This document shows positions 3,666 through 33,761 of a DNA stretch of 36,706 nt, one piece after another. The stretch is from a virus: IMG/VR virus record IMGVR_UViG_3300032241_002959, positions 1 through 36,706 of that record. The stretch is one strand, 5' to 3'. Numbering within the stretch: the first letter of the stretch is position 1; each line of letters starts with the position of its first letter. The position numbers were made by a program, and so were the translations under genes. The notes beneath the pieces were generated by a model, which saw nothing but the letters and a program-made list of their open reading frames with translations, was not told where the DNA came from and searched no databases.

Positions 3666-4289
3666 TTAATAACCTTTAATAAGTGGTGGTGATATTGTAA
3701 AGTTTTGATCAATATACTCATCAACGAAATAATCATATAGGAATGTTGCTTCAACTGATTGTACAATCTCATTACTACTCCAATCCAATGCCCAACCTGT
3801 TAATTTAGATATTTGACAGTTTTGGAAAGTAACACGTCTCAAAATAACACCCTTTTTATCATGTTGATTAACGATAATAGTACCAATTAAATCACTTTTA
3901 TAATGTAAAGTACCATTTTGAGAGTTAAATAACAAATCATACCAAGCTTTCATAGTAGCCCAAGTTTCCATAGAACCATTTTGGTTAACATTAACCTGAA
4001 ATGGGATAGTAATCTCACCACTAGTTTTATTTGGTGTTGTTTGAAATTGTCTAGTAGAATACTTAAATCTTTGCTCTTTTGCAGCAACATCAAAACTTGT
4101 TAAGTTTCCTAGATCTATTTTAGTTGCATTCTCTAAAAGTAAAATAGGATCTCTTTTTTGAGCAGTCAAAATAACCGGTAAGATAAATGTAATCTCAAAT
4201 AGATTAGTGTATACTACTTCATCAGGTAATGTACCTGGACCACCTGGTGATCCAACTCCCTGCAACTGCGTATAATGTGGTAATGCCAT
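3666..4289 (-). CDS. Tail tube protein, T4 gp19-like
   Basis: A 207-residue protein with the layout of contractile-tail tube proteins: a flexible Gly/Pro-rich N-terminus (GVGSPGGPG), a first strand TNLFEITFILP, FKYSTRQFQ in the middle, and a second half ending in a strand series with FQNCQISKLTGWALDWSSN and VEATFLYDYF. In T4 gp19 stacks into hexameric rings that form the channel for DNA. It lies on the opposite strand from the sheath gene and about 3 kb from it, whereas gp18 and gp19 are adjacent in T4, so the order has been rearranged. A weak match to the late promoter motif lies 43 bases upstream (4333-4344). The family call is fairly sure. Confidence 0.75.
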   Translation of the reverse strand: MALPHYTQLQGVGSPGGPGTLPDEVVYTNLFEITFILPVILTAQKRDPILLLENATKIDLGNLTSFDVAAKEQRFKYSTRQFQTTPNKTSGEITIPFQVNVNQNGSMETWATMKAWYDLLFNSQNGTLHYKSDLIGTIIVNQHDKKGVILRRVTFQNCQISKLTGWALDWSSNEIVQSVEATFLYDYFVDEYIDQNFTISPPLIKGY

Positions 4290-5857: not shown

Positions 5858-5889
5858 AACAAATGCTACTAAATTTAGTAGCATTTGTT
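5858..5889. terminator. Perfect 32-base palindrome, bidirectional terminator
   Basis: AACAAATGCTACTAAA is followed directly by its reverse complement. It lies between a plus-strand gene ending at 5845 and a minus-strand gene whose stop codon begins at 5891. Confidence 0.85.
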
Positions 5890-6518
5890 TATTTTATAAT
5901 TTTAATATCTAAATTAGTATCAATAGATTGAACCAATTTAATTAAATCATCACTTGGTTTATATAGTATAATACCCGTTATATATTTAGATGATAAATAA
6001 CCAGGTTTATTTGATTCTATTTTCTCCTCATATACATCTGGTCGCTTACCAGCATAATCCATAATATCCTTCGGTGAATTACCCATACCAGTTTTTTTCA
6101 CTCTTTTAATTGTCTTTATCTTAAGAGCAGCAGTAAAATCAAATGGATGTATCTTGTAATTATTAGATATCAAAGAACCATCAAGCACAAAAGTAACTCT
6201 ATTATTTTTAACCCATTGTGAATTTCTACTAGTTGATATAAAATACGATCCTCTCATATTTTTCCACAAATCCATACCTCCATAATTATCAGCATTTTTA
6301 TACCAATTTATCATTGGTTGATTACCAGTCCCATCACCAAAATTAGCAGATGCGAATTTTAAACCTTTTTCTAAAATGGAAATTATAGTTTCATATGTTT
6401 TACTATCAACATCATCACTGACTTTATCACTTTTAATATCATCACCTTTTACTGTAAATCCATGATATAAATTACCATAATTTTTACCTTCATTAAATTG
6501 TAACCAATTTTTAATCAT
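5889..6518 (-). CDS. Putative packaged protein, possibly ADP-ribosyltransferase-like
   Basis: A 209-residue protein. The start, MIKNWLQFNE-G, fits the capsid-targeting-like pattern of this window, with possible cleavage after E10. The rest resembles the core of ADP-ribosyltransferases: LYHGF (H19), then ILEKGLKF (residues 48-55), then SYFISTSR (residues 91-98), then VTFVLDG and YKIHPFDF, and finally VYEEKIES (E164, E165, E168) before a last strand ITGIILY. HG followed by a 'YF.STS' strand and a late glutamate is the order of catalytic elements in these enzymes. T4 also packages an ADP-ribosyltransferase (Alt). The match is by motif order only; it may instead be an inactive or unrelated phage protein. 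It is the last gene of a five-gene minus-strand cluster and overlaps the upstream gene by four bases. Confidence 0.5.
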   Translation of the reverse strand: MIKNWLQFNEGKNYGNLYHGFTVKGDDIKSDKVSDDVDSKTYETIISILEKGLKFASANFGDGTGNQPMINWYKNADNYGGMDLWKNMRGSYFISTSRNSQWVKNNRVTFVLDGSLISNNYKIHPFDFTAALKIKTIKRVKKTGMGNSPKDIMDYAGKRPDVYEEKIESNKPGYLSSKYITGIILYKPSDDLIKLVQSIDTNLDIKIIK

Positions 6519-6787
6519 CTTTTTATTTTTATTTTTATTAATTTTATTTTTAAGTCTCCACTACCTTTTATCAATCTGTGATAAATACCCATCGGTATAA
6601 AAACTTCACCCTCAATCTTCTTAGGAAGTTCATTATCTAATTGTATCATCCAATCAGTTTCTTTTAAAGATTCTATAATACGAGATTCACGATCGTGATG
6701 CCACATAAATTCACTAGATTCAGTATATTGACTGAATTCTCTGATAAATGTATTATCACTTATTTTACTCTCTTTAAATGGTAACAT
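6515..6787 (-). CDS. Small cupin-like protein
   Basis: A 90-residue protein with a single cupin-like strand series: MWHHDRESRIIE (residues 29-40), WMIQLDNELPKKI, VFIPMGIYHRLIKG (residues 67-80) and a closing strand DLKIKLIKI. The HH.D and later 'P.G.YHR' elements are the usual metal-site positions of small cupins. Similar small proteins are widespread in T4-like phages, without known function. The start has a weak version of the targeting pattern (MLPFKE-S), too short to count. The ATG overlaps the stop of the upstream gene (TAATG), implying coupled translation. Confidence 0.55.
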   Translation of the reverse strand: MLPFKESKISDNTFIREFSQYTESSEFMWHHDRESRIIESLKETDWMIQLDNELPKKIEGEVFIPMGIYHRLIKGSGDLKIKLIKIKIKR

Positions 6788-7179
6788 TATGATATAATTT
6801 TTTTATAATTTTCTTTTAGTTCTTTAATTTTTTGTAACCAATTATCCTTAACATCACCATCAACTACAAACTTTTTAATTCTAGGCTCAATATAAATCAA
6901 TAGCTCTCTTATTTGACCAAACAAAGCTGATAACATTTTAGGACTTTTATAAAGATCATTTACATTATCTATCAAATCAGTATATTTTTCACCATTTATA
7001 AGTGGTTCTCTCAATCTCTTCATCATAGAAGTCAATTCTTTGGTTGCAGTTTCATCAATACCCATCTTAGTAATCTGAGAAAACTTCATAGTAATCATAA
7101 AACCAAAGTCAAATAGAAAATCACTAATAAACTTTCTATTAACTGATTCAAATATCTTATAAGATTTTAAATATTTCAT
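6787..7179 (-). CDS. Unknown protein with capsid-targeting-like N-terminus
   Basis: A 130-residue, mostly helical and lysine-rich protein. Its N-terminus MKYLKSYKIFE-S is a good example of the targeting pattern (hydrophobic-x-Glu, possible cleavage after E11). The mature part has hydrophobic helices (FISDFLFDFGFMITMKF; ALFGQIRELLIYIE) but no clear membrane segment. No family was recognised. It is in the middle of the minus-strand cluster 5889-8214 and is coupled to the cupin-like gene by a TAATG overlap. An internal head protein is inferred from the N-terminus. Confidence 0.6.
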   Translation of the reverse strand: MKYLKSYKIFESVNRKFISDFLFDFGFMITMKFSQITKMGIDETATKELTSMMKRLREPLINGEKYTDLIDNVNDLYKSPKMLSALFGQIRELLIYIEPRIKKFVVDGDVKDNWLQKIKELKENYKKIIS

Positions 7180-7196
7180 CTCTTACTATTTTAATT

Positions 7197-7763
7197 TTAC
7201 CAGTACCCAGGATATGTTTTATTATTCCAAAGGTGACCATATTTATTGATTCTACAAGCCCAATAACCTGCTTTAGTCTTATCTTTCTTTGTATCACATT
7301 TATGACGTGCTGCAAATGCCTTTCTAGCCTTTGGATCACTAACCTTAGCCGTCAAACCACCATGAACATCACCAAATGCTATTTTTTTAATATTACCTGT
7401 TTTTTGATCTTTTATATATACGTGATATTTTTTACTACCACCACGCATAGGTTTATTAAGTTCCACTTCTTTACCATGGTATTCAGCTTCATTTAATTCC
7501 TCAATAACCTCCATTGGAATATCTAAAGCAACTCTAGCACCCTCAAAGATACCAAACTTACCAATATCAGTTGTATCATAAAGTTCTTTATCAATACCTT
7601 TAAGTTCTAATAAACCACCATCATATAAATTCCTAGCTTCTTCTAAGATAGCAAAGAATTCATCAGAACCTGGTCTAAATACATTTTCAGTTATTGGCAT
7701 AGCATTAACCAAATGATATTTCAAACTTTCTGAAAAATTATCAAAATTTACCAAATGTTTCAT
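7197..7763 (-). CDS. Two-module phage protein with C-terminal Cys/His domain and targeting-like N-terminus
   Basis: A 188-residue protein beginning MKHLVNFDNFSE-S, which fits the targeting pattern. Module 1 (residues 27-85) has ENVFRPGSDEFFAILEEAR and later TDIGKFG...ALDIPME. Module 2 (residues 97-180) has KPMRGGSKKYHVYIKD, KIAFGD, then AARHKC (H154, C156) and DKTKAGYWAC (C170). Module 2 is a known type in large phages and some giant viruses, usually annotated as a structural or unknown protein; the His and Cys residues could bind a metal. Its role is not established. It is directly downstream of the Cys-rich gene, one base apart. Confidence 0.65.
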   Translation of the reverse strand: MKHLVNFDNFSESLKYHLVNAMPITENVFRPGSDEFFAILEEARNLYDGGLLELKGIDKELYDTTDIGKFGIFEGARVALDIPMEVIEELNEAEYHGKEVELNKPMRGGSKKYHVYIKDQKTGNIKKIAFGDVHGGLTAKVSDPKARKAFAARHKCDTKKDKTKAGYWACRINKYGHLWNNKTYPGYW

Positions 7764-7764
7764 A

Positions 7765-8214
7765 TTATAAAATCCCTTTTAAAAAATCAGCAAATGGAAC
7801 AACATTATTATTAGGAACTACTTCTTGTTCACATTCACATGGTTCACAATTACAAGCATCACAAACAACACTAGGCTCTAAATCACCTTGACATTCACAT
7901 GGTTCACAACCACACTCTTGACAACATTCTTCAGCACAATTATCACCTTCTCCTGTTTCAACTGAAGCTTCACCATCTTCATCAATTGTTATCTTAACTG
8001 AAAAATCTTCAAATTTTTTAATAGCAGTTTTCAAACCAGGTGTACCACCATCATTTTGAATTTCCTTTTTAAGTTTTTTCTCGGCAGCATCTGTTAATTC
8101 ATCATTATTTCTTGCAAAACCAATAACATCTTTATCATCCTCAAATGATTTAATATCAACACTTGTAACCTCATCTTCTTTAGATTTAGTTTCATTAAAT
8201 CTTTTAATATACAT
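7765..8214 (-). CDS. Cysteine-rich acidic protein with targeting-like N-terminus
   Basis: A 149-residue acidic protein, first gene of the minus-strand cluster. The start MYIKRFNE-T matches the targeting pattern, with possible cleavage after E8. The C-terminal third contains twelve cysteines, of which ten form two exact copies of C-x2-C-x-C-E-P-C-E-C (residues 98-108 and 118-128). This array suggests metal binding, for example zinc clusters, but it matches no family I can name. The DNA reflects the duplication: ACATTCACATGGTTCACAA occurs at 7831-7849 and 7891-7909. A putative promoter motif is 22 bases upstream, divergent from that of the giant virion gene. Confidence 0.65.
   Translation of the reverse strand: MYIKRFNETKSKEDEVTSVDIKSFEDDKDVIGFARNNDELTDAAEKKLKKEIQNDGGTPGLKTAIKKFEDFSVKITIDEDGEASVETGEGDNCAEECCQECGCEPCECQGDLEPSVVCDACNCEPCECEQEVVPNNNVVPFADFLKGIL
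7831..7909. repeat. Internal direct repeat encoding the duplicated cysteine motif
   Basis: The 19-base sequence ACATTCACATGGTTCACAA occurs twice, at 7831-7849 and 7891-7909, exactly 60 bases apart. It encodes the CEPCEC part of each cysteine array, so the duplication is recent or under strong constraint. Confidence 0.8.
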
Positions 8215-8301: not shown

Positions 8302-11300
8302 ATGTCTAATCATAAAAATCTAATTTTCTTCAATAACCAAGGAGATTCACTAAACTTCAACTATAATGATACAACTGATAGATTTGAAGGAGATATCCTT
8401 TTTGATGAAAATTCATCAGATACATATAAAACATATGGAATATACACAATGGAAAGAATTCCTTCATTTGAATTTGAAGATCCAGGTGTATTATCTTTAA
8501 ATAAATTCCAACTATTCAATGAGTATGGTTTCCATTTCTATAGTGGGACACAGAATCCATACCCAATCACAATGATTGAGCCAGTTAATAATGATCCAGA
8601 CTTCCACTCAAAATGGATATATGGGGATAATTTTGATACACTATTTCCAATTGGTTCAGTTGTTAAATTCAATAATTCATTTTTAGAATTTACCAATAGT
8701 AACAAAGCATATACGGTTGTTGCTAATAAAAAAGGAGCAATAATGATCATTAGTGATATTGACAATGCATCATTTGAAACAAATTATTATACAGATTATA
8801 CAAATAAATCAAATTATATAAACAACAATACCCCATTGTTATATTTAACCGGAATAAATGCAATTGGTGTTTATGATTATATAGATTCTAATTATAATAA
8901 TAATTTATCTTATTGGTCTGAGCCAAATTTCTATGATAAATTTTACAATGGTAAAAAATTAAATATAGTAAACAGCAAAAGCAATGACAGTGTTGTAACC
9001 GTTACTGATTTCGAATTAACAGATAGTGTTAATTATGAATACTATGTAAATAATCTACCGGATAATCAAGATTTGATAATAGAATATAAAAGTAAAACAG
9101 ATCTACCAAACATATATAATGGACCAATCACAATAACCGATGATAATAGAATAATATTCCAAAAAGGATTACCTGATATAATAAAACCAGGCACTGAATT
9201 TAAAATTGTTGGATCTACTTTAAATACTAATTTCCTAATGGTATCAGATATTCAATCATTTATATCAAACACACAACAAACTTTTTATACAACACAATCA
9301 CAAGTATTATATGATAATAAAATATTTGAATGTGTCTTAGCTTATACACAAAGTTATGCAGATATTAATACACTGAATGTTAATCCATATAATACATACT
9401 ATTGGAAACCTTCAAATTATGTAATAGTGGATCAAATTACATATAATGAGACACTATTAAACTCACAAGTATATTTAACATCAAATATACTATATTTCAC
9501 ATATGGATATACACAAAGCTCAATAATAACATTAGCATCAGCTGCTGAATTATTTAGTTCAGATTTTAGTTCATTTAATATAGATTTATATTATAAAGAT
9601 GGTGCACTAAAAGCTGATTTAATATATCCAAGTAATTATGCTGAGGTTAATTTTTACGCAAATAGTTTAACACAATCAATTGGACAAATATATAAAACAA
9701 ATGAACGATTAATTGAAGTATCAGAAGAATTAACTTCTGAATTAAATTATAACTTAAGTGAAAATTTTAAATACAATATTGTATTTGATGAATTAGATGA
9801 TTTTGGTATAAAAATAACATTAAACAAAGAAGTATACCAAGAAGAGATTGATTTCATATTTAGTGGAGAGTTTATTGACATGGAAAGAACCATTGATAGA
9901 ACCATCAGAAATTGGTTGGATAGATATTATATACAATTAAATTTATTAGGTATAAATGCTGAACTTGACTATATTGGAAACTCATCATCATTATATTTCA
10001 ATTCTATTATTATTAAATCACAATACCCAAATGTACCAATGTTATTAAATAGTGTTGAAGTTGGGTCAGTTGCAAGTTTCCATATTGAACATTCTAGAAT
10101 ATTATTTACTAACCCAAATTCTATAGGTAGTTATATAAATATAATAATAAATAACAAAGATTATCAACAATCAACTATATTTGCAACACAATCAGGAACT
10201 GCATCATATAAAGTGGCTGATATACCAGCTACATTAGAAGCTTGGGTAAATACTTATGGTGAATACTTAACAACATTTGGACTTATACCTACTAATATAA
10301 ACAATCTTTTAAAGTTTGATATAACTAGAACCGATATAATATTTGAATACACAATACAAAATGGAAAATTAAATATACCTGGTTTAGATGATTATATAAT
10401 CACAAATAAACTACCAGGATCAATTGGTACTTTAATATCATCAAATGAAGTTGTATTACCGAGCACAGCAACAGCATCATTTGAAGATGCTGGTTTTGCA
10501 ACAGGTATGGTTTTCTCATTGAATAACACATTATACCCATACGATAATCAAGAATACACAATACAATATTTAGATCCAAATACTCTTAACTTAAGCTATC
10601 AAGGACCATTCTGGGGATCAACAAGTTCACTTTGTGACACATCACCATATGTAACACTAGCCTTCAATACTGGATTTGGTCAAACCGCCTGTGCACCTAT
10701 AGTATCAGGAAGTGGTTCAAGCCCATTTGATCTAAATCAATTTGATAACACTGCTTTCTCAATGTTTTTAAATTCATCAACTTATCAAAATACTAATATA
10801 GACTTAAATAATATACAAGGATCAATAAATATGGTTGATTTAGTATATATCCAACTATCAGATTCAATATACATACTTGGTGAAAATTTAGTAATATTAG
10901 ATGCAATTAATTTTACATATAAATCTTATATTGATTTACCAAATAATATAGACAGTTTGAAAATACAGTTCAATAATTATAATAATTATCTATACTGTTT
11001 ATCAAAAACAAATATTTGGGTAATAGATCCATTAATAAATGTTATAATTGATAATATATCGCTTACAAATATAGCATATGATATGTCAATATCAACAAAT
11101 GGTGATATTTACATAACATACGAAAATAGCCCAACTATATCAATATATAACTACACCAATACACTAGTTGTAACAATAACAACACCATCATCAACAGATA
11201 CAAAAACTGGTAAATTAACATATAATACAAAAAGTGAGACAACTTTCGTAACCACTGATAGTGGTAATATATTAGTCATAAATTCAAATAGGACTATATA

Positions 11301-14091
11301 TCAAACATATAACATACCTAATTTAAAAATAGATTTTATATTCTACGAACCTATCAATGATACAATATATATCTATGATAATTCATATCTATATAAAATA
11401 AATGATAATACTATATCACAAATTGATAATATTTCACCAACACCATTCACTGATATGCTATATAACAATTTAACAGGTGAAGTAAATATATCTGATGAAA
11501 ATTCATTTAAATCTTTTGATTTAAATAATAATTTAAATCTAAGTGAAAATATTGATGCTTATGGTTATATAACACTAAACCAATATGATGGAATGGTATA
11601 TCTAACATCACAAACAACCAATTCAATACTAACAATAAACCCATCAAATGGTTGGAATATAGAAACCACACATTTTAATGCAATATCCACTAAAATAATA
11701 TATAACCCAGCTAGAAACTCGGTATGTGCTATACAACCAAGTATAAATAATGTTGTTGAAATTACAACTACAATAGAAACCAACATTACAACCACAACTA
11801 CTAATTCTATATCAATAGAAGATCAGAATTATGGAACACTGCATAGTGAATATACACCACATGAGGATATATGGCTAAAATCAAGAGAATATCTTAGAAG
11901 ACCTAGAGAGAATTATATTAATGATACACAAGTGCAATTCTATTGGAAATGGATTGATGACCAAACGCCTGATTTCTTCTTATATGATATGTCTGGTGAT
12001 CAATTACAAACAACAGGTAGTTATTCATACACAGGACCAAAACCTTTATTAGATGTTGGATTAAATAAATATCCAAATAGTGATATAACAAAAGTTTCAA
12101 TACCACAATATCAACAAACTGTTTTTGACACTATAACACAAAATTTAGATTATATCAATGATAGCGAAAATATATACAATGAACCAGAGGCTATGCAATT
12201 ATTTATAGGTTTTAAATCAGAAGATGAAGGACCAAAACAATCTATTTTACAACTCTACAAAAAAGAAACTATTGAATTTGATATAACAAGTACATCAACG
12301 AATAACACTATATTAACATTTTCAACTGAAATAGATTCAACTGGATTAACTTACGGACAAGTTAAAATAAACAACATGTCTGATGAAACATTTATAAATA
12401 AAGGTCTTAAACAAGGACAAACAATACTACTTTATATAAAAGATGTTTCCAATATAAACAACCAATACACATCACATAATAATGGATCATTATTTAAAAT
12501 AAGAGACATATACACAAATACACTAATATTGGACTTTTTTAATATCACATCAGATTATTTATACCAAGAAAGTACTATTATACAAGATTACCCAATACTA
12601 GGAAAAGACACTTATCTAAAAACTACCTTTCAAATAATAGATAGAGAAATTGGTAGATTTAATACATATGCACAAACTGAAATAGAAGATTTTAGATACA
12701 AAATCCAACTTAATAATATAGGAAAAAATATAGGACCACATGAAGTATTCATATTCAAAGATTATGATATATTAGAAGGTGGTATTGACTGGAATTTCTT
12801 AAATATAAAGAGAAAAGAAATGTTGATGAATAAAAATCTTATATATCCATATATAGGTGCATATAAATCAATCATAAATGCTATTAATTTTTTTGGTTAT
12901 AATGATTTGGAATTAAATGAATATTATAGAAATATAAACCCAAAATCAAAAGATTTCTCTAAACTATTCAAGGTTGAAATACCTGATATATTTGATAACT
13001 CAATACAAGGTTGGTCTAATGATGGAGATTTCCTAAAACATACATACCCAAACGCCAATTATGAAGAAACAAATCTTCTTAATTTAACTTACGATATAAC
13101 TGATAAAAGTGGTAATAATATTCTAACATATAGTATTGATGATGTAACGATTAAATTACAAGGTCTTAAATATTGGCTTTCAAAAAATATAATACCTTTA
13201 ACACATAAGATATTAGATATAACAGGTAAGACTTACTTTAAAGGAGGTAATCAAATAACACATAAAATGCATGATGTTAGAATATTCAATGTAAATGAAA
13301 ATATGACACCTATAACAGGTAAATTAAATGAGGCTTATTTAATGCCCATAAATAGTGGATCAACAGTATATAATTGTGTCATTGATTTTTATTCAATTAT
13401 AGATGGTGTGGGAGCAGATAAGAACCCAACAGGTCTTACCACACCACCCAAACCATTCAATGGTGTAGAACTTAAATTACCAGATTATTTTAATATTAAA
13501 ATAAGAACTTATAAAACATATAAAGAATGGACACCATTCACTAGTTACCAAAAAGGTGATAAAATTATATATTATGGTTACTTATACGAATCCACTATCA
13601 ATAATAACAGGACAAATAATCCACAAAAATATGATAGTGTATCACCTTGGTCTTCTAATATAACATATACACCTACTAGTTTAGCTGAATATTCTAATAG
13701 AATTTATGTATATAGTGGTTTAGGATCAACTGCTTCAATAAACCCACCAGTATTAGATCAAGGTGATAATGCAAATTGGTTAGATATAACAGAGTGGTCT
13801 AAAATTAATTATGAACCAGTACAAACAATAGATGAATATAGAAGAATAACAACAACATATAGTATTGGTGTGACACAATCAACTACATTATTGAACCAAA
13901 TACCACCATACAATTTCACAATAGATTCAAATTTAGACCCATTTATAACAATTGAAATTATAAGTGATAATGGATATGGTTCTATTTACAATGATAAGAA
14001 AAACTATGAGATTAGAGGTATAAAAGATTTAACTGATAAGGTCGTACCAATAGAACAAATTGGACCATTTGTTCCAATAACAATAATATAA
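8302..14091 (+). CDS. Giant virion protein (baseplate or tail fibre component) with beta-propeller and carbohydrate-binding-like modules
   Basis: A 1929-residue, Asn/Ile/Tyr-rich protein with no cytosolic enzyme motifs. The N-terminal third is beta-rich. Residues about 840-1150 read as a beta-propeller: repeated strands of the type 'D.IYIL....LVILDA', 'NYLYCLSKTNIWVID', 'GDIYITYENSPTISIYN', 'GNILVINS' and 'DTIYIYDNSYLYKI'. A threonine-rich linker (residues about 1153-1165) ends it. Residues about 1495-1540 (LNIKRKEMLMNKNLIYPY, AINFFGYNDLELNEYYRNI) resemble the assembly region of baseplate wedge or tail-I type proteins. Residues about 1740-1800 (WTPFTSYQKGDKIIYYGYLY) have the W/Y pattern of small CBM5/12-like sugar-binding modules. 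It would act at the tail tip in host binding. It has an exact late promoter motif and a strong terminator. A T4 gp7 counterpart is possible but unproven. Confidence 0.6.
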   Translation: MSNHKNLIFFNNQGDSLNFNYNDTTDRFEGDILFDENSSDTYKTYGIYTMERIPSFEFEDPGVLSLNKFQLFNEYGFHFYSGTQNPYPITMIEPVNNDPDFHSKWIYGDNFDTLFPIGSVVKFNNSFLEFTNSNKAYTVVANKKGAIMIISDIDNASFETNYYTDYTNKSNYINNNTPLLYLTGINAIGVYDYIDSNYNNNLSYWSEPNFYDKFYNGKKLNIVNSKSNDSVVTVTDFELTDSVNYEYYVNNLPDNQDLIIEYKSKTDLPNIYNGPITITDDNRIIFQKGLPDIIKPGTEFKIVGSTLNTNFLMVSDIQSFISNTQQTFYTTQSQVLYDNKIFECVLAYTQSYADINTLNVNPYNTYYWKPSNYVIVDQITYNETLLNSQVYLTSNILYFTYGYTQSSIITLASAAELFSSDFSSFNIDLYYKDGALKADLIYPSNYAEVNFYANSLTQSIGQIYKTNERLIEVSEELTSELNYNLSENFKYNIVFDELDDFGIKITLNKEVYQEEIDFIFSGEFIDMERTIDRTIRNWLDRYYIQLNLLGINAELDYIGNSSSLYFNSIIIKSQYPNVPMLLNSVEVGSVASFHIEHSRILFTNPNSIGSYINIIINNKDYQQSTIFATQSGTASYKVADIPATLEAWVNTYGEYLTTFGLIPTNINNLLKFDITRTDIIFEYTIQNGKLNIPGLDDYIITNKLPGSIGTLISSNEVVLPSTATASFEDAGFATGMVFSLNNTLYPYDNQEYTIQYLDPNTLNLSYQGPFWGSTSSLCDTSPYVTLAFNTGFGQTACAPIVSGSGSSPFDLNQFDNTAFSMFLNSSTYQNTNIDLNNIQGSINMVDLVYIQLSDSIYILGENLVILDAINFTYKSYIDLPNNIDSLKIQFNNYNNYLYCLSKTNIWVIDPLINVIIDNISLTNIAYDMSISTNGDIYITYENSPTISIYNYTNTLVVTITTPSSTDTKTGKLTYNTKSETTFVTTDSGNILVINSNRTIYQTYNIPNLKIDFIFYEPINDTIYIYDNSYLYKINDNTISQIDNISPTPFTDMLYNNLTGEVNISDENSFKSFDLNNNLNLSENIDAYGYITLNQYDGMVYLTSQTTNSILTINPSNGWNIETTHFNAISTKIIYNPARNSVCAIQPSINNVVEITTTIETNITTTTTNSISIEDQNYGTLHSEYTPHEDIWLKSREYLRRPRENYINDTQVQFYWKWIDDQTPDFFLYDMSGDQLQTTGSYSYTGPKPLLDVGLNKYPNSDITKVSIPQYQQTVFDTITQNLDYINDSENIYNEPEAMQLFIGFKSEDEGPKQSILQLYKKETIEFDITSTSTNNTILTFSTEIDSTGLTYGQVKINNMSDETFINKGLKQGQTILLYIKDVSNINNQYTSHNNGSLFKIRDIYTNTLILDFFNITSDYLYQESTIIQDYPILGKDTYLKTTFQIIDREIGRFNTYAQTEIEDFRYKIQLNNIGKNIGPHEVFIFKDYDILEGGIDWNFLNIKRKEMLMNKNLIYPYIGAYKSIINAINFFGYNDLELNEYYRNINPKSKDFSKLFKVEIPDIFDNSIQGWSNDGDFLKHTYPNANYEETNLLNLTYDITDKSGNNILTYSIDDVTIKLQGLKYWLSKNIIPLTHKILDITGKTYFKGGNQITHKMHDVRIFNVNENMTPITGKLNEAYLMPINSGSTVYNCVIDFYSIIDGVGADKNPTGLTTPPKPFNGVELKLPDYFNIKIRTYKTYKEWTPFTSYQKGDKIIYYGYLYESTINNNRTNNPQKYDSVSPWSSNITYTPTSLAEYSNRIYVYSGLGSTASINPPVLDQGDNANWLDITEWSKINYEPVQTIDEYRRITTTYSIGVTQSTTLLNQIPPYNFTIDSNLDPFITIEIISDNGYGSIYNDKKNYEIRGIKDLTDKVVPIEQIGPFVPITII

Positions 14092-14127: not shown

Positions 14128-15033
14128 TTATTTCAAACCTTTAAATATATGGGCAATCACATCAACAGTCCAACCATCACCCAATATACAAGCTGCCTCA
14201 TTTTGAGTTAAGTTATCAGTATATCCACTCGGAACAGTTTGGCAAAACTCACGTTCCCTATTATTCATATATCTAACACCACTATACACACTCAAATCCA
14301 TACCCTTTGATAACTCATCAATTTCAGCAGCACTTTTACCTTTAAAATTTACATCAAAATGTTTCTTTAATTCTTCATAATGTTCCTTTGATTTAAATAT
14401 AAGAGTAGTGAAACCTGTATTGAAATATCTATGACACATTTTAATGGGAGTTGATAGTGGTCTAGAATCCGATTCAAGTAAAGTTCTAGCCTTATCTCTA
14501 TCAGAATAACCATTAATCAAAAAATCATTCAATTTCATTTTTTTATTTTCAGGAAGTGTAATACCTGGTATATTAGTCCAATATAAACGATGTCTTAAAT
14601 GCGGTGCAACTAATTCAGAATTTATAACAACTGGCTCACATCCCATCATTTCACTAATAAAATCCTGATGCTCTTTTTTCATCCTAACATTCTCTAATAA
14701 GAAATATTTTGGATTTGTCTCCTCTAATAATCTAGTATATTCAAAGAATAAACCACTCTTAGTACCATCAACACCAAGTCTCTCTTTATTAGCACCAGAA
14801 AAATCTTGACATGGTGATCCACCTATCAATAGGTCTATTTTAGGCAAATCTTTACCATTTATCTTAGTAATATCTCCTAATCTATTTGGAGTATCTTGTG
14901 GATAATTAATATCAGCTACCTTTATAGCATAATCTTTAATTTCACTACTGAAATAATTAGTAACATCAACACCCGCTTTTTCAAGAGCTATTCTACCACA
15001 ACTCATTCCATCAAAAAGACTTAATACATTCAT
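14128..15033 (-). CDS. C5-cytosine DNA methyltransferase, tandem copy 1
   Basis: A 301-residue Dcm-type enzyme, transferring methyl from SAM to cytosine C5. Motif I is LSLFDGMSCG (residues 4-13), motif IV is GGSPCQDFS with catalytic C75, motif VI is LLENV (112-116), and motif VIII is LRHRLYWTN. The region of residues 160-255, the expected target recognition domain, differs from copies 2 and 3. The C-terminus has GDGWTVDVIAHIFK where the other two have GNGWTVDVIAHIFK. Copy 1 lacks the Q of the usual QxRxR in motif VIII. It is the last of three copies on the minus strand and lies 5 bases after copy 2. No restriction enzyme is nearby, so modification or protection of phage DNA is more likely than a restriction-modification system. 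Confidence 0.92.
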   Translation of the reverse strand: MNVLSLFDGMSCGRIALEKAGVDVTNYFSSEIKDYAIKVADINYPQDTPNRLGDITKINGKDLPKIDLLIGGSPCQDFSGANKERLGVDGTKSGLFFEYTRLLEETNPKYFLLENVRMKKEHQDFISEMMGCEPVVINSELVAPHLRHRLYWTNIPGITLPENKKMKLNDFLINGYSDRDKARTLLESDSRPLSTPIKMCHRYFNTGFTTLIFKSKEHYEELKKHFDVNFKGKSAAEIDELSKGMDLSVYSGVRYMNNREREFCQTVPSGYTDNLTQNEAACILGDGWTVDVIAHIFKGLK

Positions 15034-15038
15034 AATTT

Positions 15039-15893
15039 TTATTTTATATTTTTAAATATATGAGCAATTACATCAACCGTCCAACCATTACCAAGCATTT
15101 TCAATGCCTGTGATCTACTTACTGAAATAGTATAATCAATAGGAACACATTGTAATCTCTCTCCCTCATTTCTTGTTATTTTTCTAACCCTACCATCATT
15201 TTCTAAAATCTTAGCCTTACCACTAGCACCAGTATCTAAACAACCATGTTTACCATTTAAATAATAAGCTCTCTGATCTTGACTACCATGACCTGTACCA
15301 TTTATATCATATTGTAAATAATTCTTTTTAAACACACGGATTTTTGTTTTATCATCATCTATATATTCAAAATCATTACTATTTAGATCTACTATATCTT
15401 TAATTAAAATTCCTCTATCTTCTGGTAAGTTAATAACAGGTATATTAGTCCAATATAAACGTTCACGATTCTGTGCAGAAACGAGATTACTATTAATCAT
15501 TATAGGTTCAACACCTAGTTCTTTAGTGATTATATCCTCCCATTCGTTTTTCATCTTAACATTTTCTAATAGAAAATATTTAGGATTAATTTCATTTTTA
15601 ATCCTAACATATTCCCAAAATAAACCTGATTTACCATCAAAACCAGTACCATTTCCAGCTCTTGAAAACGATTGACATGGACTACCACCTATAAGTAAAT
15701 CAATTTTCGGTAATTCAGATCCATTTAAATCCAAAACACTCCCCAATTGAATTGTATCTGGATAGTTATCTAAAGTTACTTTCATAGCATGAGTATCAAT
15801 TTCAGAGGCAAAATATTTATCATATTTAATACCTGCTCTATTTAAAGCTATTTGCCCACAAGACATACCATCAAAAAGACTTAAAACATTCAT
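15039..15893 (-). CDS. C5-cytosine DNA methyltransferase, tandem copy 2
   Basis: A 284-residue Dcm-type enzyme. Motifs: LSLFDGMSCGQIALNRAGI at the N-terminus, GGSPCQSFS (C73), LLENV (residues 108-112), SAQNRERLYWTNIP (motif VIII complete) and GNGWTVDVIAHIFKNIK at the end. Its first 22 residues are identical to copy 3, and its C-terminal 17 residues are too. The central part (residues about 155-250) has its own sequence, including HGSQDQRAYYLNGKHG, so a different DNA target is likely. This is the shortest copy. It lies 4 bases after copy 3. Confidence 0.92.
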   Translation of the reverse strand: MNVLSLFDGMSCGQIALNRAGIKYDKYFASEIDTHAMKVTLDNYPDTIQLGSVLDLNGSELPKIDLLIGGSPCQSFSRAGNGTGFDGKSGLFWEYVRIKNEINPKYFLLENVKMKNEWEDIITKELGVEPIMINSNLVSAQNRERLYWTNIPVINLPEDRGILIKDIVDLNSNDFEYIDDDKTKIRVFKKNYLQYDINGTGHGSQDQRAYYLNGKHGCLDTGASGKAKILENDGRVRKITRNEGERLQCVPIDYTISVSRSQALKMLGNGWTVDVIAHIFKNIK

Positions 15894-15897
15894 ATAA

Positions 15898-16809
15898 TTA
15901 TTTTATATTTTTAAATATATGAGCAATTACATCAACCGTCCAACCATTACCAATCATTTTTCTAATTTGATTATCACTAGCAACACCATCAAAATAATTA
16001 TCAGGAACGGTTTGTAATCTACAATATTCCTTAATAGTATAATATCTAAATGGTAATTGTAATTTAAAAGCATCAGGATGACGACCCACTGGCATTATAG
16101 TTAAAACATTATCCTTAGCAACCGTAGTTAGACAATTACTTTTATTTCTGTTAGTAGCTCTAACTTCAAGACATTGTGTAATGGGCACATCTTTATTATA
16201 ATCCTTTCTAATACCATTATCATCTAATCTTCTACCTAGTATAGTTGCCTTATTCAATCTTCTACCCCTTATTGCACTAGGTCCTATCATAACATCATCT
16301 TCTAAAATATCAACCAAATTAATATTCTTATCATCAGGCTGTTGAATATTAGGTATATTAGTCCAATATAATCGTTGGCGATTTTGTGCAGAAACAAGAC
16401 TACTATTAATCAAAATAGGTTCTACACCCAGATGCTCACTAATAACATCTTGATACTCCTTTTTCATTACAACATTTTCTAATAAAAAATACTTAGGTTC
16501 ACACTCTTTTAACAATCTAACATACTCAAAGAATAATTTACTCCTAGGATCTTCAAAATTTAATTGTTTCCCCGAAAAGCTGAAACCCTGACAGGGACTA
16601 CCACCAATCAATAAATCTATTTTAGGTAAATTAGATCCCTTAACATCCAAAACACTACCTATTTGGATAGTATTTGGATAATTGTGATTAGCCACTTTGA
16701 TAGCATGTTTATCAATCTCACTAGCATAATAGTTATTATACTCTATACCAGCTCTATTTAGAGCAATTTGCCCACAAGACATACCATCAAAAAGACTTAA
16801 CACATTCAT
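15898..16809 (-). CDS. C5-cytosine DNA methyltransferase, tandem copy 3
   Basis: A 303-residue Dcm-type enzyme, first of the three in transcription order. Motifs: LSLFDGMSCGQIALNRAGI, GGSPCQGFS (C73), LLENV (residues 109-113), SAQNRQRLYWTNIP and GNGWTVDVIAHIFKNIK. The recognition part (residues about 160-260) is basic and includes IRGRRLNKATILGRRL, different from copies 1 and 2; CRLQTVPDNYFDG is motif IX-like. Just upstream is a terminator for the gene before it, so either readthrough or a promoter in the short gap (16810-16827) must drive the three copies; no good match to the late motif is visible there. Confidence 0.92.
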   Translation of the reverse strand: MNVLSLFDGMSCGQIALNRAGIEYNNYYASEIDKHAIKVANHNYPNTIQIGSVLDVKGSNLPKIDLLIGGSPCQGFSFSGKQLNFEDPRSKLFFEYVRLLKECEPKYFLLENVVMKKEYQDVISEHLGVEPILINSSLVSAQNRQRLYWTNIPNIQQPDDKNINLVDILEDDVMIGPSAIRGRRLNKATILGRRLDDNGIRKDYNKDVPITQCLEVRATNRNKSNCLTTVAKDNVLTIMPVGRHPDAFKLQLPFRYYTIKEYCRLQTVPDNYFDGVASDNQIRKMIGNGWTVDVIAHIFKNIK

Positions 16810-18536: not shown

Positions 18537-21500
18537 TTAATAAGTATTATTTCCATCATCACCATTCAATTTCTCTTTCAAATATTTATCAAGATAACCC
18601 GTATTATGAATAAGTTTATATAACAAATCTATCATTTTATCATTTTGTTCATTAGTTGTACCATGCTTACCTCTATATTCCTTTTTACCACCATCTTTTC
18701 TCTTATCACCAGGCACTGCAATAGATGTCAAATTACCAATAGCACCACCAACTAATCCGATATTAGAAGCATTGGGATTTGCGTTATTAACATTACTATC
18801 CGAATTCTTAATAACTCTATTAATCATATTACTATTAAGACCTTTAAAAGCACTTATTTTCTTCTCATCTAACGAATTAACAGCTTTATTAAACTTCATT
18901 AATGAATTACCCATTTTATCATAAGCTATTGCTAACTTAGTCATACTACTAGCTATATTTGTCATTGGATCACCAAAAACAGCACCCTTAACCAAACTTT
19001 TCAAACCATTACCACTATTTAATTTATTAGCAAGTGTCATATAATAATAAATATTAGATGACATATTTTTCATGAAATTTGGATCAATTTTTATTTGAAA
19101 TGCATCCACTCCCTTTTGTAATTCTTTTGCAAAATTAACCATACCTTTAGCACTTTTAATAATAAGATCCCTATTCAAGAAACCAACATCAGAATCAGCA
19201 ACCATATTCTGTAATCTACTAAAATATTTAAATGAATTTAATACACTAACTCCCCAATTTTTATCAGGCATATTTTTAGGATCCCAATTTACTTTTGATA
19301 ATGAGAATATACGACCAACTTTAACAATAGCATATGCCATTTGTTTAACACCATAAACCATATCACCAATAGCCTCCTTACCACTCTCAAACCAACCTTT
19401 ACCACTAAGTGCCTTGAAAACAGGTGAGAATGCAGAAAGAGCATTACCAACACCAACACTCCACTCTTTAGTTGGATAAGTTCCCTCATTAAACCCAACC
19501 TTACTCATTGCAAAAATACCAGCAGATGCAACTATACCATGTGATATAGTCATTATAGCATTTTTAAATTCTTCAATACTAACACCTGTACCGAAAATAC
19601 CACTCTCATCAGATAATATTTTATAAACCGGAGCAAAAGCACCAATTGCATTACCAACACCCTCAGCCCATTCTTTACTAGGACCACCAGTAAAAGCAAC
19701 TTTACCAGCTTGGAAAAATAATGCAGCATCAACTATTCCTTGTGATATAGTACGTATAGCATCAGTAAATGCACCAACACTCGGACCACTACCCATAAAT
19801 AAACTAACTATACCACCTCTCATCATCATCTTATAAATAGGAGCAAAAGCACCTATTGCCAATGAAACACCTTCAGCCCATTCTTTTTTCGGACCACCTG
19901 TAAAGGCATTCGATGAAGCTTTAAATATCCATGCAACATCAACAATTGAATGTGCAATAGTTCTAACAGCATTAGCACCTGCTTTGATGGCTAGACCACC
20001 TAAACCCAAAGTACCAACAACATATGTTCCTAATGTAATAACAGCTAATCCAAAACCTGTCATCAACCCACCAACACTTAATGCCCATTCCCAACCAGGA
20101 TATTTATCATATTTACCCTTGGATATTATTCTATCAACATCAACAATTGATTGTGCAACCATTGGTATCATTTTAGTACCAGCTACTATTGCAACTGCTC
20201 CGATACCAGTAACTGCCAATGCACCCAAAGCAACAACAGCCAATCCAAATCCTAACATAGTAGAACCAACACTCAAAACCCAACCTAAACCAGGATATTT
20301 ATCATATTTACCTTTGGATATTATATCATCACTATCAACAATTGATTTTGCAATTAATGGAACTAATAATGCACCAGCTACTATTGCAACTGCACCAATA
20401 CCAGTAACAGCTATACTACCCAATTCAAGAACAGCCAATCCAAATCCTAACATAGCCAATCCCACTGAAACTGCCCAACCTAAACCAGGATATTTTTTAT
20501 ATGTTCCCATTGCTAAAATATTAGATGATATTGCAATTGCACCAGCAATAAGAGGTATAGCAATAACACCCAAACCAATAGCAGCCATACCAACTCCACT
20601 AGCAGCAACTATACCAACACCCAAAACAGCTGGTAAAACAGCCAATAAACAAAGACCTAAAACAACACCAAAAACAGCTATCTTTAGTAATAAACCAAAC
20701 TCTATCGGTTTACTCATTGCTAATATATGTGATGATAACATTATAGCCAATGAAATAGCAACAAATACTAATGGAACAACAGCTAACATTTTTTTAGAAC
20801 CAATAGTTTTATCCATTATCACTATACCAATTGCCATCTCAGGCATAACATATGACATTAATCCAAATAAAAGAGCTATACCCAAAGCTGTAATAAATGT
20901 AGGTAAATCTAGTGGTTTGATTAATGATAATACCCAAGATGATGCAGTAATTGCAACTGCTATACCAACTAAACACATCAATAGATCTTTTGGTTTAACA
21001 TTAGCTTTATCAAATGCAACAACACCCATTGCAATTTTATCTAAATTATATGATATAATCATAAACATAGCACTTATCAAAATACCAGTTATAGCCTGAC
21101 CCAATGTCATCGGTACTATAAATGCCAATGCCCAAGATGATAAAGTAATTGCAACAGCTACTCCAACTAAACACATCAATAGATCTTTGGGCTTAACATT
21201 TGCTTTATCAAAAGCTGCTACACCCTTTGCAATTTTATCTAAATTATACGATATAACCAAAAACATACCAGCTATTAATATACCTGTCACTGCTTGTGGA
21301 AATGTAATAGGTTGAATTGCTTGTAATACCCAAGATGATAAAGTAACAGCAATTGATATTAAAACCATAGTTGCTGATGCAACCAATGCTTGTTTCATAG
21401 TTAACTTTAATGCTCCAATCTTTTCAAATGTCTGTGCAAGTATAAACATAGCAATTGACAAGCCTATAACAGATAAAAAATTAATACCACCAACCAATTT

Positions 21501-21860
21501 AAAAGCCATTCCAATTGCAAGAACAGCAACAGCTATTAGAAGTATTGTACCAACACCTTTTTTGATATCATTTTCTTGCTTTTTACTACCACCAACTTTT
21601 TCAAATGTTGATTTATTATCACCTCTACTTTTAGAAAGTTCTATTATAGTTTGTTGATTTTTTAATATTGCCTTAGTATCTCTTTGCAGAGCTTTTACAC
21701 CAATATTAATTTCTTTAATTTCTTTAATAAAATTACCACCCTGAAGTGCCTGCGTAGTTGCCGATTTCTTCGCTTTATCATCTTTTTTCAATGCATCTGA
21801 TATCTCACTCAGTGCAAGTGATAAATTATTGAGAGCATCTAGTAACTTCTTATCCATCAT
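18537..21860 (-). CDS. Repeat-rich hydrophobic protein, probable tail tape measure
   Basis: An 1107-residue protein. Residues 1-100 are a polar, coiled-coil-like region (LLDALNNLSLALSEISDALK). After that come long hydrophobic segments organised in repeats: AFDKANVKPKDLLMCLVG occurs twice, 66 residues apart; KYPGLGW / KYPGWEW blocks occur three times, about 65 residues apart, each followed by a glycine/alanine-rich helix pair; KEWAEGV / KEWSVGV blocks occur three times, about 70 residues apart. The common spacing suggests one ancestral unit, as in tape measures whose repeats set tail length. The C-terminal 200 residues are polar. T4's own tape measure, gp29, is shorter and lacks such repeats. 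A large multi-pass membrane protein is the alternative. Confidence 0.55.
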   Translation of the reverse strand: MMDKKLLDALNNLSLALSEISDALKKDDKAKKSATTQALQGGNFIKEIKEINIGVKALQRDTKAILKNQQTIIELSKSRGDNKSTFEKVGGSKKQENDIKKGVGTILLIAVAVLAIGMAFKLVGGINFLSVIGLSIAMFILAQTFEKIGALKLTMKQALVASATMVLISIAVTLSSWVLQAIQPITFPQAVTGILIAGMFLVISYNLDKIAKGVAAFDKANVKPKDLLMCLVGVAVAITLSSWALAFIVPMTLGQAITGILISAMFMIISYNLDKIAMGVVAFDKANVKPKDLLMCLVGIAVAITASSWVLSLIKPLDLPTFITALGIALLFGLMSYVMPEMAIGIVIMDKTIGSKKMLAVVPLVFVAISLAIMLSSHILAMSKPIEFGLLLKIAVFGVVLGLCLLAVLPAVLGVGIVAASGVGMAAIGLGVIAIPLIAGAIAISSNILAMGTYKKYPGLGWAVSVGLAMLGFGLAVLELGSIAVTGIGAVAIVAGALLVPLIAKSIVDSDDIISKGKYDKYPGLGWVLSVGSTMLGFGLAVVALGALAVTGIGAVAIVAGTKMIPMVAQSIVDVDRIISKGKYDKYPGWEWALSVGGLMTGFGLAVITLGTYVVGTLGLGGLAIKAGANAVRTIAHSIVDVAWIFKASSNAFTGGPKKEWAEGVSLAIGAFAPIYKMMMRGGIVSLFMGSGPSVGAFTDAIRTISQGIVDAALFFQAGKVAFTGGPSKEWAEGVGNAIGAFAPVYKILSDESGIFGTGVSIEEFKNAIMTISHGIVASAGIFAMSKVGFNEGTYPTKEWSVGVGNALSAFSPVFKALSGKGWFESGKEAIGDMVYGVKQMAYAIVKVGRIFSLSKVNWDPKNMPDKNWGVSVLNSFKYFSRLQNMVADSDVGFLNRDLIIKSAKGMVNFAKELQKGVDAFQIKIDPNFMKNMSSNIYYYMTLANKLNSGNGLKSLVKGAVFGDPMTNIASSMTKLAIAYDKMGNSLMKFNKAVNSLDEKKISAFKGLNSNMINRVIKNSDSNVNNANPNASNIGLVGGAIGNLTSIAVPGDKRKDGGKKEYRGKHGTTNEQNDKMIDLLYKLIHNTGYLDKYLKEKLNGDDGNNTY

Positions 21861-21929: not shown

Positions 21930-22391
21930 ATGAAAATTAAAAAAATAATTAAATATTATCTTCTAGGTGAGTCTTTAAAGGATATAGAATTAGATAGAAT
22001 TCTTACAAAGATTAATAAAAAGAAGAAACTCTCTGAAAGGGAAAAGAATTTTATTGACCTATACGAAGCAACTAAAAATGATATTTTAAATGATTATATG
22101 CTATTATCAAAAAATACAACATCATCTAAAATTAAAGAATTATTAAAATCAAACATAAAAATAATATGCAATCTGGAAGATCAAGATGGTGCATTTAGAT
22201 TAGAAATACTAAATATTGAAAATGATTTTGAAAATGATAAAGCTATAATATACATGAGGGGAAATGAAAAACATTATCTAGAAGATAAATATTTATACAA
22301 TTTAATTTATAATATAGGGAAAAAAAGTTATTCACTTGAAATACAAGATGAATATTTCGAAAAAATAGAAGCCAATAATAATGAAGATTAA
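21930..22391 (+). CDS. Unknown protein with ILxKI...LSExEKxF module
   Basis: A 153-residue product (158 if the ATG at 21915 is used; that ATG overlaps the promoter-like motif, so 21930 is preferred). The N-terminus is basic (MKIKKIIKYYLLGES). Residues about 21-43 carry DRILTKINKKKKLSEREKNF, a short module also found near the C-termini of two other products here (26245 and 29757) and like the DUF6576-type tail of Bacteroidota proteins. The rest alternates strands and helices with no motif. The stop overlaps the next ATG by 11 bases, implying a two-gene operon with 22381. Confidence 0.55.
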   Translation: MKIKKIIKYYLLGESLKDIELDRILTKINKKKKLSEREKNFIDLYEATKNDILNDYMLLSKNTTSSKIKELLKSNIKIICNLEDQDGAFRLEILNIENDFENDKAIIYMRGNEKHYLEDKYLYNLIYNIGKKSYSLEIQDEYFEKIEANNNED

Positions 22392-22656
22392 AAGATTTAA
22401 TAAATTTGTAAAAGAATCCATATCAGGTACTGAAATACCCACAAATCCAAACTTCAGTTATTTTGGTCCATCATATGGTACACAGAAAAGTCCAAATACA
22501 ATAAATTATCATGATACTGATGTTATACTAGCATCTGATAATAAATTTTATTCAGAAGATGATTATAATGATATGTATCAAAACTATCTTAAAAATGGTG
22601 GTAAACCACTAGATGGTTTTAATTTAGAAAATATAGAAACAATTTTAAATTTCTAA
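22381..22656 (+). CDS. Small protein with capsid-targeting-like N-terminus
   Basis: A 91-residue protein starting MKIKRFNKFVKE-S, one of the clearest copies of the targeting pattern (possible cleavage after E12). The remaining 79 residues are polar and rich in Asn, Asp and Tyr, with no recognised domain (NYHDTDVILASDNKFYSEDD is a representative part). It overlaps the upstream gene by 11 bases. Its stop codon overlaps the stop of the convergent fibre gene, and no terminator is visible at that junction, unlike every other convergent pair in the window. Confidence 0.6.
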   Translation: MKIKRFNKFVKESISGTEIPTNPNFSYFGPSYGTQKSPNTINYHDTDVILASDNKFYSEDDYNDMYQNYLKNGGKPLDGFNLENIETILNF

Positions 22657-30274: not shown

Positions 30275-30646
30275 TTAAAAAGCTCCTTCAGCACCAGTTC
30301 CTGATTCTGGACCACCGTATTTACCAGCATCTTCCCATTCACCATTCTCTTTTTGTTTAACTGTTTTTGCCTTCATAACTACCTTTGCAACATCTACAGG
30401 ATTAACAGCATCTGCTCCTATTTTTCCACCCAAGAAAGCATCTACACTTGGTGCATTTTTTTTAGCAACATCAAATCTATCACCAAAACTAGCAGCATAA
30501 TCATTATATTTTTTTTTAAGTGTTTCTTTTTCTTTTTCAAGATTTGAAAGAATTTCTTTTATAACAGCTTGTGGTCTCAAACCACCTAAAAAAGCCTCAT
30601 TAGTTGTATCTATTGAATAACTTTCAAAATTTTTTAAATATTTCAT
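30275..30646 (-). CDS. Small glycine-rich protein with capsid-targeting-like N-terminus
   Basis: A 123-residue protein. The start MKYLKNFESYSIDTTNE-A has the targeting features, with two possible cleavage points: FE-S after residue 8 or TNE-A after residue 17. Then FLGGLRPQAVIKEILSNLEK leads into a charged helix (KEKETLKKKYNDYAA), AFLGGKIGADAVNPVDVAKV and a glycine-rich end (GKYGGPESGTGAEGAF). No family was recognised. It is the only gene of its minus-strand unit and is divergent from another targeting-signal gene at 30757. A packaged internal protein is inferred. Confidence 0.6.
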   Translation of the reverse strand: MKYLKNFESYSIDTTNEAFLGGLRPQAVIKEILSNLEKEKETLKKKYNDYAASFGDRFDVAKKNAPSVDAFLGGKIGADAVNPVDVAKVVMKAKTVKQKENGEWEDAGKYGGPESGTGAEGAF

Positions 30647-33732: not shown

Positions 33733-33761
33733 AAAAACGACACTATTTGGTGTCGTTTTTT
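33733..33761. terminator. Bidirectional terminator after the aminotransferase
   Basis: The stem AAAAACGACAC / GTGTCGTTTTT with loop TATTTG lies at a convergent junction. The minus-strand gene's TAG stop (33743-33745) is inside the hairpin. Confidence 0.9.

Follow-up and report, generated by a model that had tools for sequence, protein, structure and literature searches.

The window analysed here, the 36,706 bases of IMG/VR virus record IMGVR_UViG_3300032241_002959, contains ten open reading frames (ORFs) whose products share a short N-terminal leader ending, in nine of the ten, in hydrophobic-x-Glu. We consider these shared N-termini very probably to be T4-type capsid-targeting propeptides, and the proteins that carry them (tagged proteins) probably to be injected cargo. 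In megaphage relatives of the window, the leaders are enriched, modular and conserved at their junctions, and the protease and capsid genes that such a pathway would use are present. We infer that a leader of about 8-15 residues, written in a lineage-specific dialect, would bind the prohead core; that an S77 (T4 gp21-type) protease would trim it after hydrophobic-x-Glu; and that the mature protein, packaged in the head of the window's phage, would remain with the DNA and be ejected along with it. The mechanism itself is already known from T4, in which the first 10 residues of internal protein III (IPIII) are described as needed for packaging and gp21 as cutting after L/I-x-E; the same review proposes that T4-like phages can acquire various proteins by means of capsid-targeting sequences (PMC9026906). 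Within the open-access literature accessible to us, we found no report of a phage in which an eighth of the genes carry leaders, of lineage dialects or of an occurrence in megaphages.

Placement of the window among megaphages

The window encodes a tail sheath, a hub-like protein and a tail tube. Its tube protein, which served to place it among megaphages of 634-735 kb, is 79% identical to the copy of LR745206 (W01; 634,780 bases) and 66% to that of LR756502 (W02; 642,428 bases), and is more distant from those of LR756504, LR756501/LR756503 (LR756501, or W04, being 735 kb), LR756500, PTm1, PTm5, pT24 and PAU. On the basis of these identities, we therefore take the window as a fragment of a megaphage from the group that includes W01 and W02. 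Relatives of the tube protein are encoded on 324 IMG/VR stretches, the best of them 97% identical; further relatives compared are designated G002, G006, G007, G008 and G009. The LR7565xx genomes presumably stem from the study of huge-phage clades. The W01/W02 group has been described as sister to Mar_Mega_1 (PMC9723777).

Enrichment of the leader

All ten ORFs that an earlier, sequence-only reading of this DNA had singled out were recovered with their coordinates, strands and N-termini (Table 1); four cluster in 5889-8214, and the rest lie at 22.4, 30.3-30.8 and 33.7-35.5 kb, on both strands. Leaders were scored with a first-Glu rule (first Glu at residues 7-15, a hydrophobic residue at Glu-2, at least one K/R and no Pro), and residues 2-20 were permuted as a control (200 shuffles for the window). 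Genes were called with a greedy ORF caller, which sets some starts wrongly, and proteins shorter than 60 amino acids (aa) were excluded from the counts. In the window, 11/40 proteins passed the rule, versus 3.7±1.6 after shuffling (maximum 9) and 3.1±1.6 for interior stretches, which places the motif above chance. Nine of the ten listed leaders are among them; the remaining one (30275-30646) has Asn at Glu-2 and fails the rule, and passes a trained profile with a high score. The other rule-passing ORFs are 25048 and 32303, the first of them probably by chance because three of its four orthologs lack a matching Glu (two have none at the site, and the third has its first Glu at residue 3).

A position profile trained on either W01 or W02 and applied to the other at a cut-off score of 6 tagged 112/910 proteins in W01 (1.7 after shuffling) and 140/940 in W02 (2.2); trained on W02, it retrieved only 6787, 22381 and 30275 among the window's proteins (3/40; shuffled 0.05). 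The first-Glu rule yielded 185/910 (shuffled 77) and 205/940 (73), excesses of about 108 and 132 that agree with the profile counts. The profile transfers incompletely between lineages, as evidenced by W04 (24/975, although the rule gives 160/975 versus 72). The figure of about ten tagged proteins per phage advanced by the sequence-only reading was therefore an underestimate, about 110-140 being present in each 630-640 kb relative. A short, predicted N-terminal propeptide common to unrelated bodies is thus a feature of W01 and W02, its length of 7-15 residues being fixed by the rule itself.

Among other phages, the first-Glu rule gave 41/288 in PAU (shuffled 21), 23/217 in immuto (13), 25/293 in PTm1 (19), and 54/657 versus 49 in Bacillus phage G, which has no S77 match and is not enriched. 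When any Glu was allowed, z scores were 11-12 for the megaphages, 5.3 for PAU, 3.3 for immuto, 2.5 for PTm1 and 2.0 for phage G; in view of the last three, leader enrichment is clear only in the megaphages and PAU.

These controls bear on a bias in translation initiation, by which AT- and Lys-rich starts that aid expression in a (probably Bacteroidota-like) host would mimic the motif. Low GC content (about 25-32%) and A-rich upstream sequences without an obvious Shine-Dalgarno site (by eye) would suit it. However, shuffling residues 2-20 leaves about 2 profile matches versus 112-140, phage G at 30% GC has 1 match versus 1.07 shuffled, and synonymous codons vary at fixed leader residues, the Ser at P1' being encoded by both TCN and AGY. 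Shuffles and codons largely refute this bias, to which we attach hardly any credence.

Dialects and modularity of the leaders

Leader-rich lineages each have a distinct dialect with hydrophobic-x-Glu at its end. Among the first four residues, the most frequent are MKYL (43) and MKHL (16) in W01, MKHL (47) and MKYL (30) in W02, MKKL (18) and MIKK (15) in W04 and MKTL (15) in PAU; phage G also has MKRL (13). The main dialects here are MK[YH]LKxFNE/S, MK[YH]LKxYKIFE/S and MI(I)KKYxQFIxE/S, the slash marking the predicted cut. With hydrophobic-x-E fixed by the rule, Glu-2 is Ile or Leu in 98/185 rule-passing W01 proteins and mostly Phe or Tyr in the others; the motif used here is wider than the strict T4 rule L/I-x-E. 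Ser, Asn and Ala are favoured after Glu.

The bodies attached to these leaders (residue 21 on) fall into 105 clusters from 112 proteins in W01 and 127 from 140 in W02. At the nucleotide level, nine-residue leaders (35 and 40, respectively) share on average a fraction of 0.73, and 0 and 1 pairs are fully identical; given this value and the use of both Ser codon families, the likeness reflects selection on the leader peptide and not copying of DNA. Tagged genes form 40 and 62 adjacent pairs versus 13.8±3.2 and 20.7±3.8 upon permutation, to which neighbouring paralogs may add slightly. A late-promoter signature (TATAAATA at most 60 bases upstream) did not discriminate them (4/112 tagged versus 30/798 untagged in W01; 6/140 versus 27/800 in W02).

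Orthologs were considered to have a leader if they passed the first-Glu rule or had a profile score >2. This was the case for 29/36 W02 reciprocal-best partners of tagged W01 proteins versus 31/314 for untagged ones (p=2e-19), and for 30/36 versus 49/314 when nearby starts were allowed. In the 22381 family, the junction reads MKIKRFNKFVKE/SISGTE in the window, MIKKFYQFINE/ISGTE in W01, MAIKSFKSFNE/EVSGTE in W02 (start internal to the call) and KINNFKQFKE/AISGTE in G002. In the 7197 family, Glu is fixed beside the body in 5/5 megaphage sequences (window included), with 0-4 residues inserted before it; the immuto homolog has a different start and no Glu, and its tblastn match begins at residue 13, right after Glu. 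Leader class may also be swapped: a W01 protein starts MIIKKYIKFINE/E, and its W02 counterpart, 84% identical in the body, starts MKYLRTYE/G (start internal to the call). Finally, the slot between the 7197 and 6515 orthologs holds in the window the 6787 body, without BLAST match in G009 or G002; in G009 it holds another tagged body, and in G002 one resembling that of G009 (by eye) plus a third, the G009 and G002 bodies each starting with an M[KR][HY]LKxYKIFE leader. This slot thus appears to retain the leader and exchange the cargo.

Were the tagged proteins paralogs diverged past recognition, the N-terminus could be an inherited, non-functional remnant, a reading that the weak paralogy of 33743 and 34141 (33% over 94 residues, seen via a relative) would favour. 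The number of body clusters, the swaps of leader class between orthologs and the matches of the bodies to different Pfam families (RNA ligase, 2H phosphoesterase, NUDIX, lysozyme, methyltransferase) render it extremely improbable.

Protease and capsid genes of the relatives

The sequence-only reading had named the lack of a gp21-type protease as grounds for rejecting it; relatives do encode one, and this objection therefore falls. An S77 match was found in 9/10 records of relatives (immuto included), with the His/Ser motifs GEFDHP and SSRAAG in the megaphage frame and GELDHP and SSRGTG in immuto. The 36.7-kb window fragment gave no S77 match, yet the same search was silent in all 14 control genomes. 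The protease protein has 707 aa in W01, 699 in W02 and 807 in W04, and runs on into a scaffold-like part with about 11 YSEYLAEN/YIAEN-type repeats. Its [LI]-x-E triplets outnumber those of composition shuffles (24 versus 12, 25 versus 13 and 22 versus 11), in part because the scaffold-like region is repetitive.

A gp23-type capsid gene lies directly next to the protease-scaffold gene, and the Pfam gp23 family scored above cut-off in 10/10 records searched; no capsid gene was recognised in the window. The capsid protein of the relatives has a matching predicted cut site, FHSINE/NAY or similar. SINE/N occurs in 80/80 homologs examined, the best 80 of 195 IMG/VR matches (68 called by pattern, holding 22 distinct local sequences, and 12 by inspection); the junction is INE/N in W01 and W02 and MNE/N in W04.

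Fusion of the S77 protease to a long scaffold-like part in one frame (L090; LR745206 198546-200669) has a counterpart in PTm1, where a 589-aa protease-scaffold fusion (217778 onward) has repeats unlike the megaphage ones; T4 encodes protease and scaffold separately. LR756501 encodes a second, short S77-like protein (11314-11850, minus strand; 178 aa) with FRPRAAG where others have VSSRAAG.

Sphingomonas phage PAU as an outside check

In the record of PAU, a cultured phage, five genes bear the label 'internal capsid protein' (gp70, 142, 154, 199 and 270), given by the depositors on a basis that the record does not state. Four of the five carry the PAU leader (MKSLTNLYE, MKTISKLYE, MKSISELYE and MKGLHNLYE), which is present in 19/295 called proteins (Fisher p=6e-5 for enrichment in the labelled ones). 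The pattern was written after viewing PAU N-termini, without using the depositors' notes. Collectively, the protease of the relatives, the capsid junction and the PAU leaders support well the proposed prohead targeting and predicted gp21-type cut after hydrophobic-x-Glu.

The same findings bear on whether the N-terminus is instead an uncut tag by which the protein docks to a different assembly or compartment (membrane, replication compartment, nucleus-like shell or scaffold), with Glu as part of the docking motif. A short basic/aromatic N-terminus could dock anywhere, and it is at their start, MK[YH]L, that the main dialects are most stereotyped. Such a tag is nevertheless improbable: Glu is anchored beside the body while leader length varies, Ser, Asn and Ala are preferred after it, the capsid junction has the same form, and the PAU leaders stand on labelled internal capsid proteins.

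Nature of the tagged proteins

Pfam scans covered 110/112 tagged W01 proteins (the two shortest omitted), 110/140 tagged W02 proteins (shorter ones and those crossing 20-kb pieces omitted) and, as a control, 110/112 length-matched untagged W01 proteins with profile score <0. They matched 15, 22 and 63 families, respectively; at E 0.001, at least 95/110 tagged W01 proteins are without a match, each of the 15 families being represented by a single protein. The first 25 of the 63 untagged families listed include gyrase, DnaB, gp32, two tRNA synthetases, IMP dehydrogenase and guanylate kinase, all absent from both tagged lists. DUF6576 is in all three lists, and NUDIX and methyltransferase occur among tagged and untagged proteins alike. 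Tagged W01 proteins include a T4-type RNA ligase (75 bits, above cut-off), a protein that combines a 2H phosphoesterase with an RNase_T exonuclease domain (both above cut-off; its match to the Acb1 anti-CBASS model falls below), NUDIX, M15 peptidase and methyltransferase, and tagged W02 proteins an RNA ligase, a 2H protein, lysozyme, SET, GNAT, HNH and glycosyl hydrolase. Other phages use RNA repair and cyclic-nucleotide hydrolysis for counter-defence; the tagged enzymes therefore fit, and do not prove, an early-acting cargo. One copy of every tagged protein would amount to 2.4-2.8 MDa.

Prohead targeting could also serve proteins of head assembly or of the core, which are then degraded or retained, and not injected effectors. 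T4 core proteins are likewise described as cut at such sites (PMC9026906, PMC5694885), and the annotated PAU 'scaffolding' protein gp152 carries a leader. On the other hand, tagged W01 proteins have a W02 partner less often than untagged ones (32% versus 47%), as fits accessory cargo, and enzymes such as RNA ligase, 2H phosphoesterase and lysozyme would hardly be expected in a scaffold. We hold it unlikely that this applies to most tagged proteins, although it is the alternative with the strongest claim.

Extending the reading of the leaders as propeptides of injected cargo, megaphages of this clade may inject a preloaded proteome of some 100 or more proteins, about an eighth of their genes, specified by a lineage-specific peptide code in which gain of a leader alone would make a protein cargo. 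This would be a fast-turnover arsenal that includes counter-defence enzymes (the 2H phosphoesterase with its weak Acb1-model match and the T4-type RNA ligase) acting before phage gene expression. We rate the chances of this broader proposal as even. The majority of genes in 600-kb phages lack a known function, and a readable head-bound tag would at once give about one such gene in eight a role and point to candidates for injected counter-defence proteins. Such a tag would also be relevant to the large size of megaphage heads and genomes, and to tools for protein delivery; if true, megaphages could carry in the head a large ready-made toolkit, delivered with the DNA.

Several observations weigh against the reading as capsid-targeting propeptides. 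A clear enrichment by the first-Glu rule is absent from T4, HTVC008M and PTm1 (18/251 versus 18 shuffled in T4; 15/183 versus 11 in HTVC008M) despite a gp21-type protease in all three; T4 keeps its known MKTYQEFIAE-type starts, too few to shift genome-wide statistics, and HTVC008M, considered as a further positive case, was discarded. Phage G rises under the any-Glu rule (116 versus 100.5±7.7), and weak excesses therefore mean little. Seven of the 36 tagged W01 proteins have a leaderless ortholog at the called start, six if nearby starts are allowed. Second cut sites are not in excess in W01 (31/112 versus 33.0) or W02 (39/140 versus 39.6), with some excess in PAU (10/19 versus 5.4±1.8). The megaphage S77 matches are under the Pfam cut-off, and one of the 10 records, a 201-kb contig, has none. 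In PAU, gp70 and both 'internal capsid vertex' proteins lack the leader; N-terminal sequencing of its capsid protein is reported to show processing from 585 to 520 residues (PMC5646251, Table 1), and the predicted cut LME/N leaves 521, one off.

Comparison with known systems

T4 IPI-IPIII and Alt, as described in PMC9026906, likewise combine a short N-terminal propeptide ending in hydrophobic-x-Glu with unrelated mature bodies, an S77 protease and a gp23-type capsid. T4 differs in having a handful of such proteins, versus 112/910 and 140/940 in the megaphages, which have their own dialect, Phe and Tyr also common at Glu-2, and a protease fused to the scaffold-like part. The ejection (inner-body) proteins of phiKZ and SPN3US are described as large injected cargo that a gp21-like protease cleaves after Glu (PMC9026906, PMC5694885, PMC13282480), to which the megaphage cargo would be alike. 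However, the sites described for phiKZ are S/A-x-E (PMC9026906), whereas the megaphage capsid site is I-N-E, and several SPN3US propeptides are described as exceeding 100 residues (PMC5694885), whereas those here have 8-15 residues and a stereotyped sequence. Neither phiKZ-type S/A-x-E sites nor several propeptides >100 residues thus seem to be a feature of the megaphages; leader length and a hydrophobic Glu-2 are fixed by our rule and therefore say less against membership of that type. The PAU proteins, with MK[ST][LI]xxLYE/ leaders, are alike in placing a stereotyped leader on different bodies, and differ in dialect, in their lower number, in a second LNE site in 7/19 and in a protease (246 aa) that is not fused to a long scaffold. 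In phage P1, the N-terminal 30 residues of DarB are described as sending a foreign protein to the capsid (PMC9024508), a likeness by description; the excerpt of that source available to us reports no stereotyped leader family.

Leader-bearing and neighbouring genes of the window

Table 1. Features of the window (slash, predicted cut).
Position	Strand	Product	Leader (position)	Remark
3666..4289	-	tail tube protein	none	
5889..6518	-	209 aa	MIKNWLQFNE/G (6489-6518)	motif only; no convincing relatives
6515..6787	-	90 aa, untagged		67-86% identical in relatives
6787..7179	-	130 aa	MKYLKSYKIFE/S (7147-7179)	profile score 22.6
7197..7763	-	188 aa	MKHLVNFDNFSE/S (7728-7763)	body is PHROG 7595
7765..8214	-	149 aa, acidic	MYIKRFNE/T (8191-8214)	ortholog leaders MNIKRFNE/S, MHINRFHE/A
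8302..14091	+	1929 aa		no PHROG match
14128..16809	-	301, 284 and 303 aa, tandem		all start MNVLSLFDGMSCG
18537..21860	-	1107 aa, hydrophobic, Gly/Ala-rich, repetitive		no PHROG match
22381..22656	+	91 aa	MKIKRFNKFVKE/S (22381-22416)	junction kept in orthologs
30275..30646	-	123 aa	MKYLKNFE/S (30623-30646)	trained profile; sole relative near-identical
30757..31338	+	193 aa	MIIKKFNTLNE/K (30757-30789)	ortholog leaders NIKCFDSFNE/K, ENIKSFDSFNE/K
33743..34141	-	132 aa	MRKFSRIVE/S (34115-34141)	weak paralog of neighbour
34141..34887	-	248 aa	MRKFTKIIE/S (34861-34887)	motif
34887..35522	-	211 aa	MIKKWNRYILE/F (35490-35522)	relatives MIKKWNQFIRE/F, MIKKWGDFIRE/F, MMRKLKLYRE/F, MSKIKKFYE/F

Divergent orthologs with the junction kept back the leaders of 7197, 7765, 22381, 30757 and 34887, and that of 6787 is backed by one, in G007 (71% identical; MKYLKEYKIFE/S, start internal to the gene call). 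Near-identical relatives only, plus one paralog pair, were found for 30275, 33743 and 34141; these three and 5889 were assigned by motif or profile, since they have no divergent relative. Indeed, relatives of 5889-6518 were absent from IMG/VR (in a scan reaching close relatives only), the phage collection and 5239 called proteins, the sole matches being two of 10.9 bits within frames of ~1300 residues in G006 and G008. For this protein, an ADP-ribosyltransferase, suggested by motifs (LYHG / STSRN / YEEKIE), was unsupported by Pfam, NCBIfam and PDB and is not claimed; the predicted fold was meaningless (predicted local distance difference test, pLDDT, 32) and lent it no support.

The untagged 6515-6787 ORF sits among the four tagged ORFs of the 5889-8214 cluster. 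It and its relatives start MLPFKES, MILPYKET or MTLPFQET, with a conserved x-E-[ST] and a Pro, by which they fail the rule. In G006 (63863-64993), G008 (314 onward) and G007 (5609 onward), the homolog is preceded by an endonuclease-like stretch (KHHIIP..., by eye) fused to it in the same frame. Next to leader genes, LR745206 has a 1910-aa ORF (209260-214992) whose start is like that of 8302-14091. The three tandem ORFs at 14128-16809, a local gene triplication, look by eye like C5-cytosine DNA methyltransferases, and the 18537-21860 product is tape-measure-like in look only.

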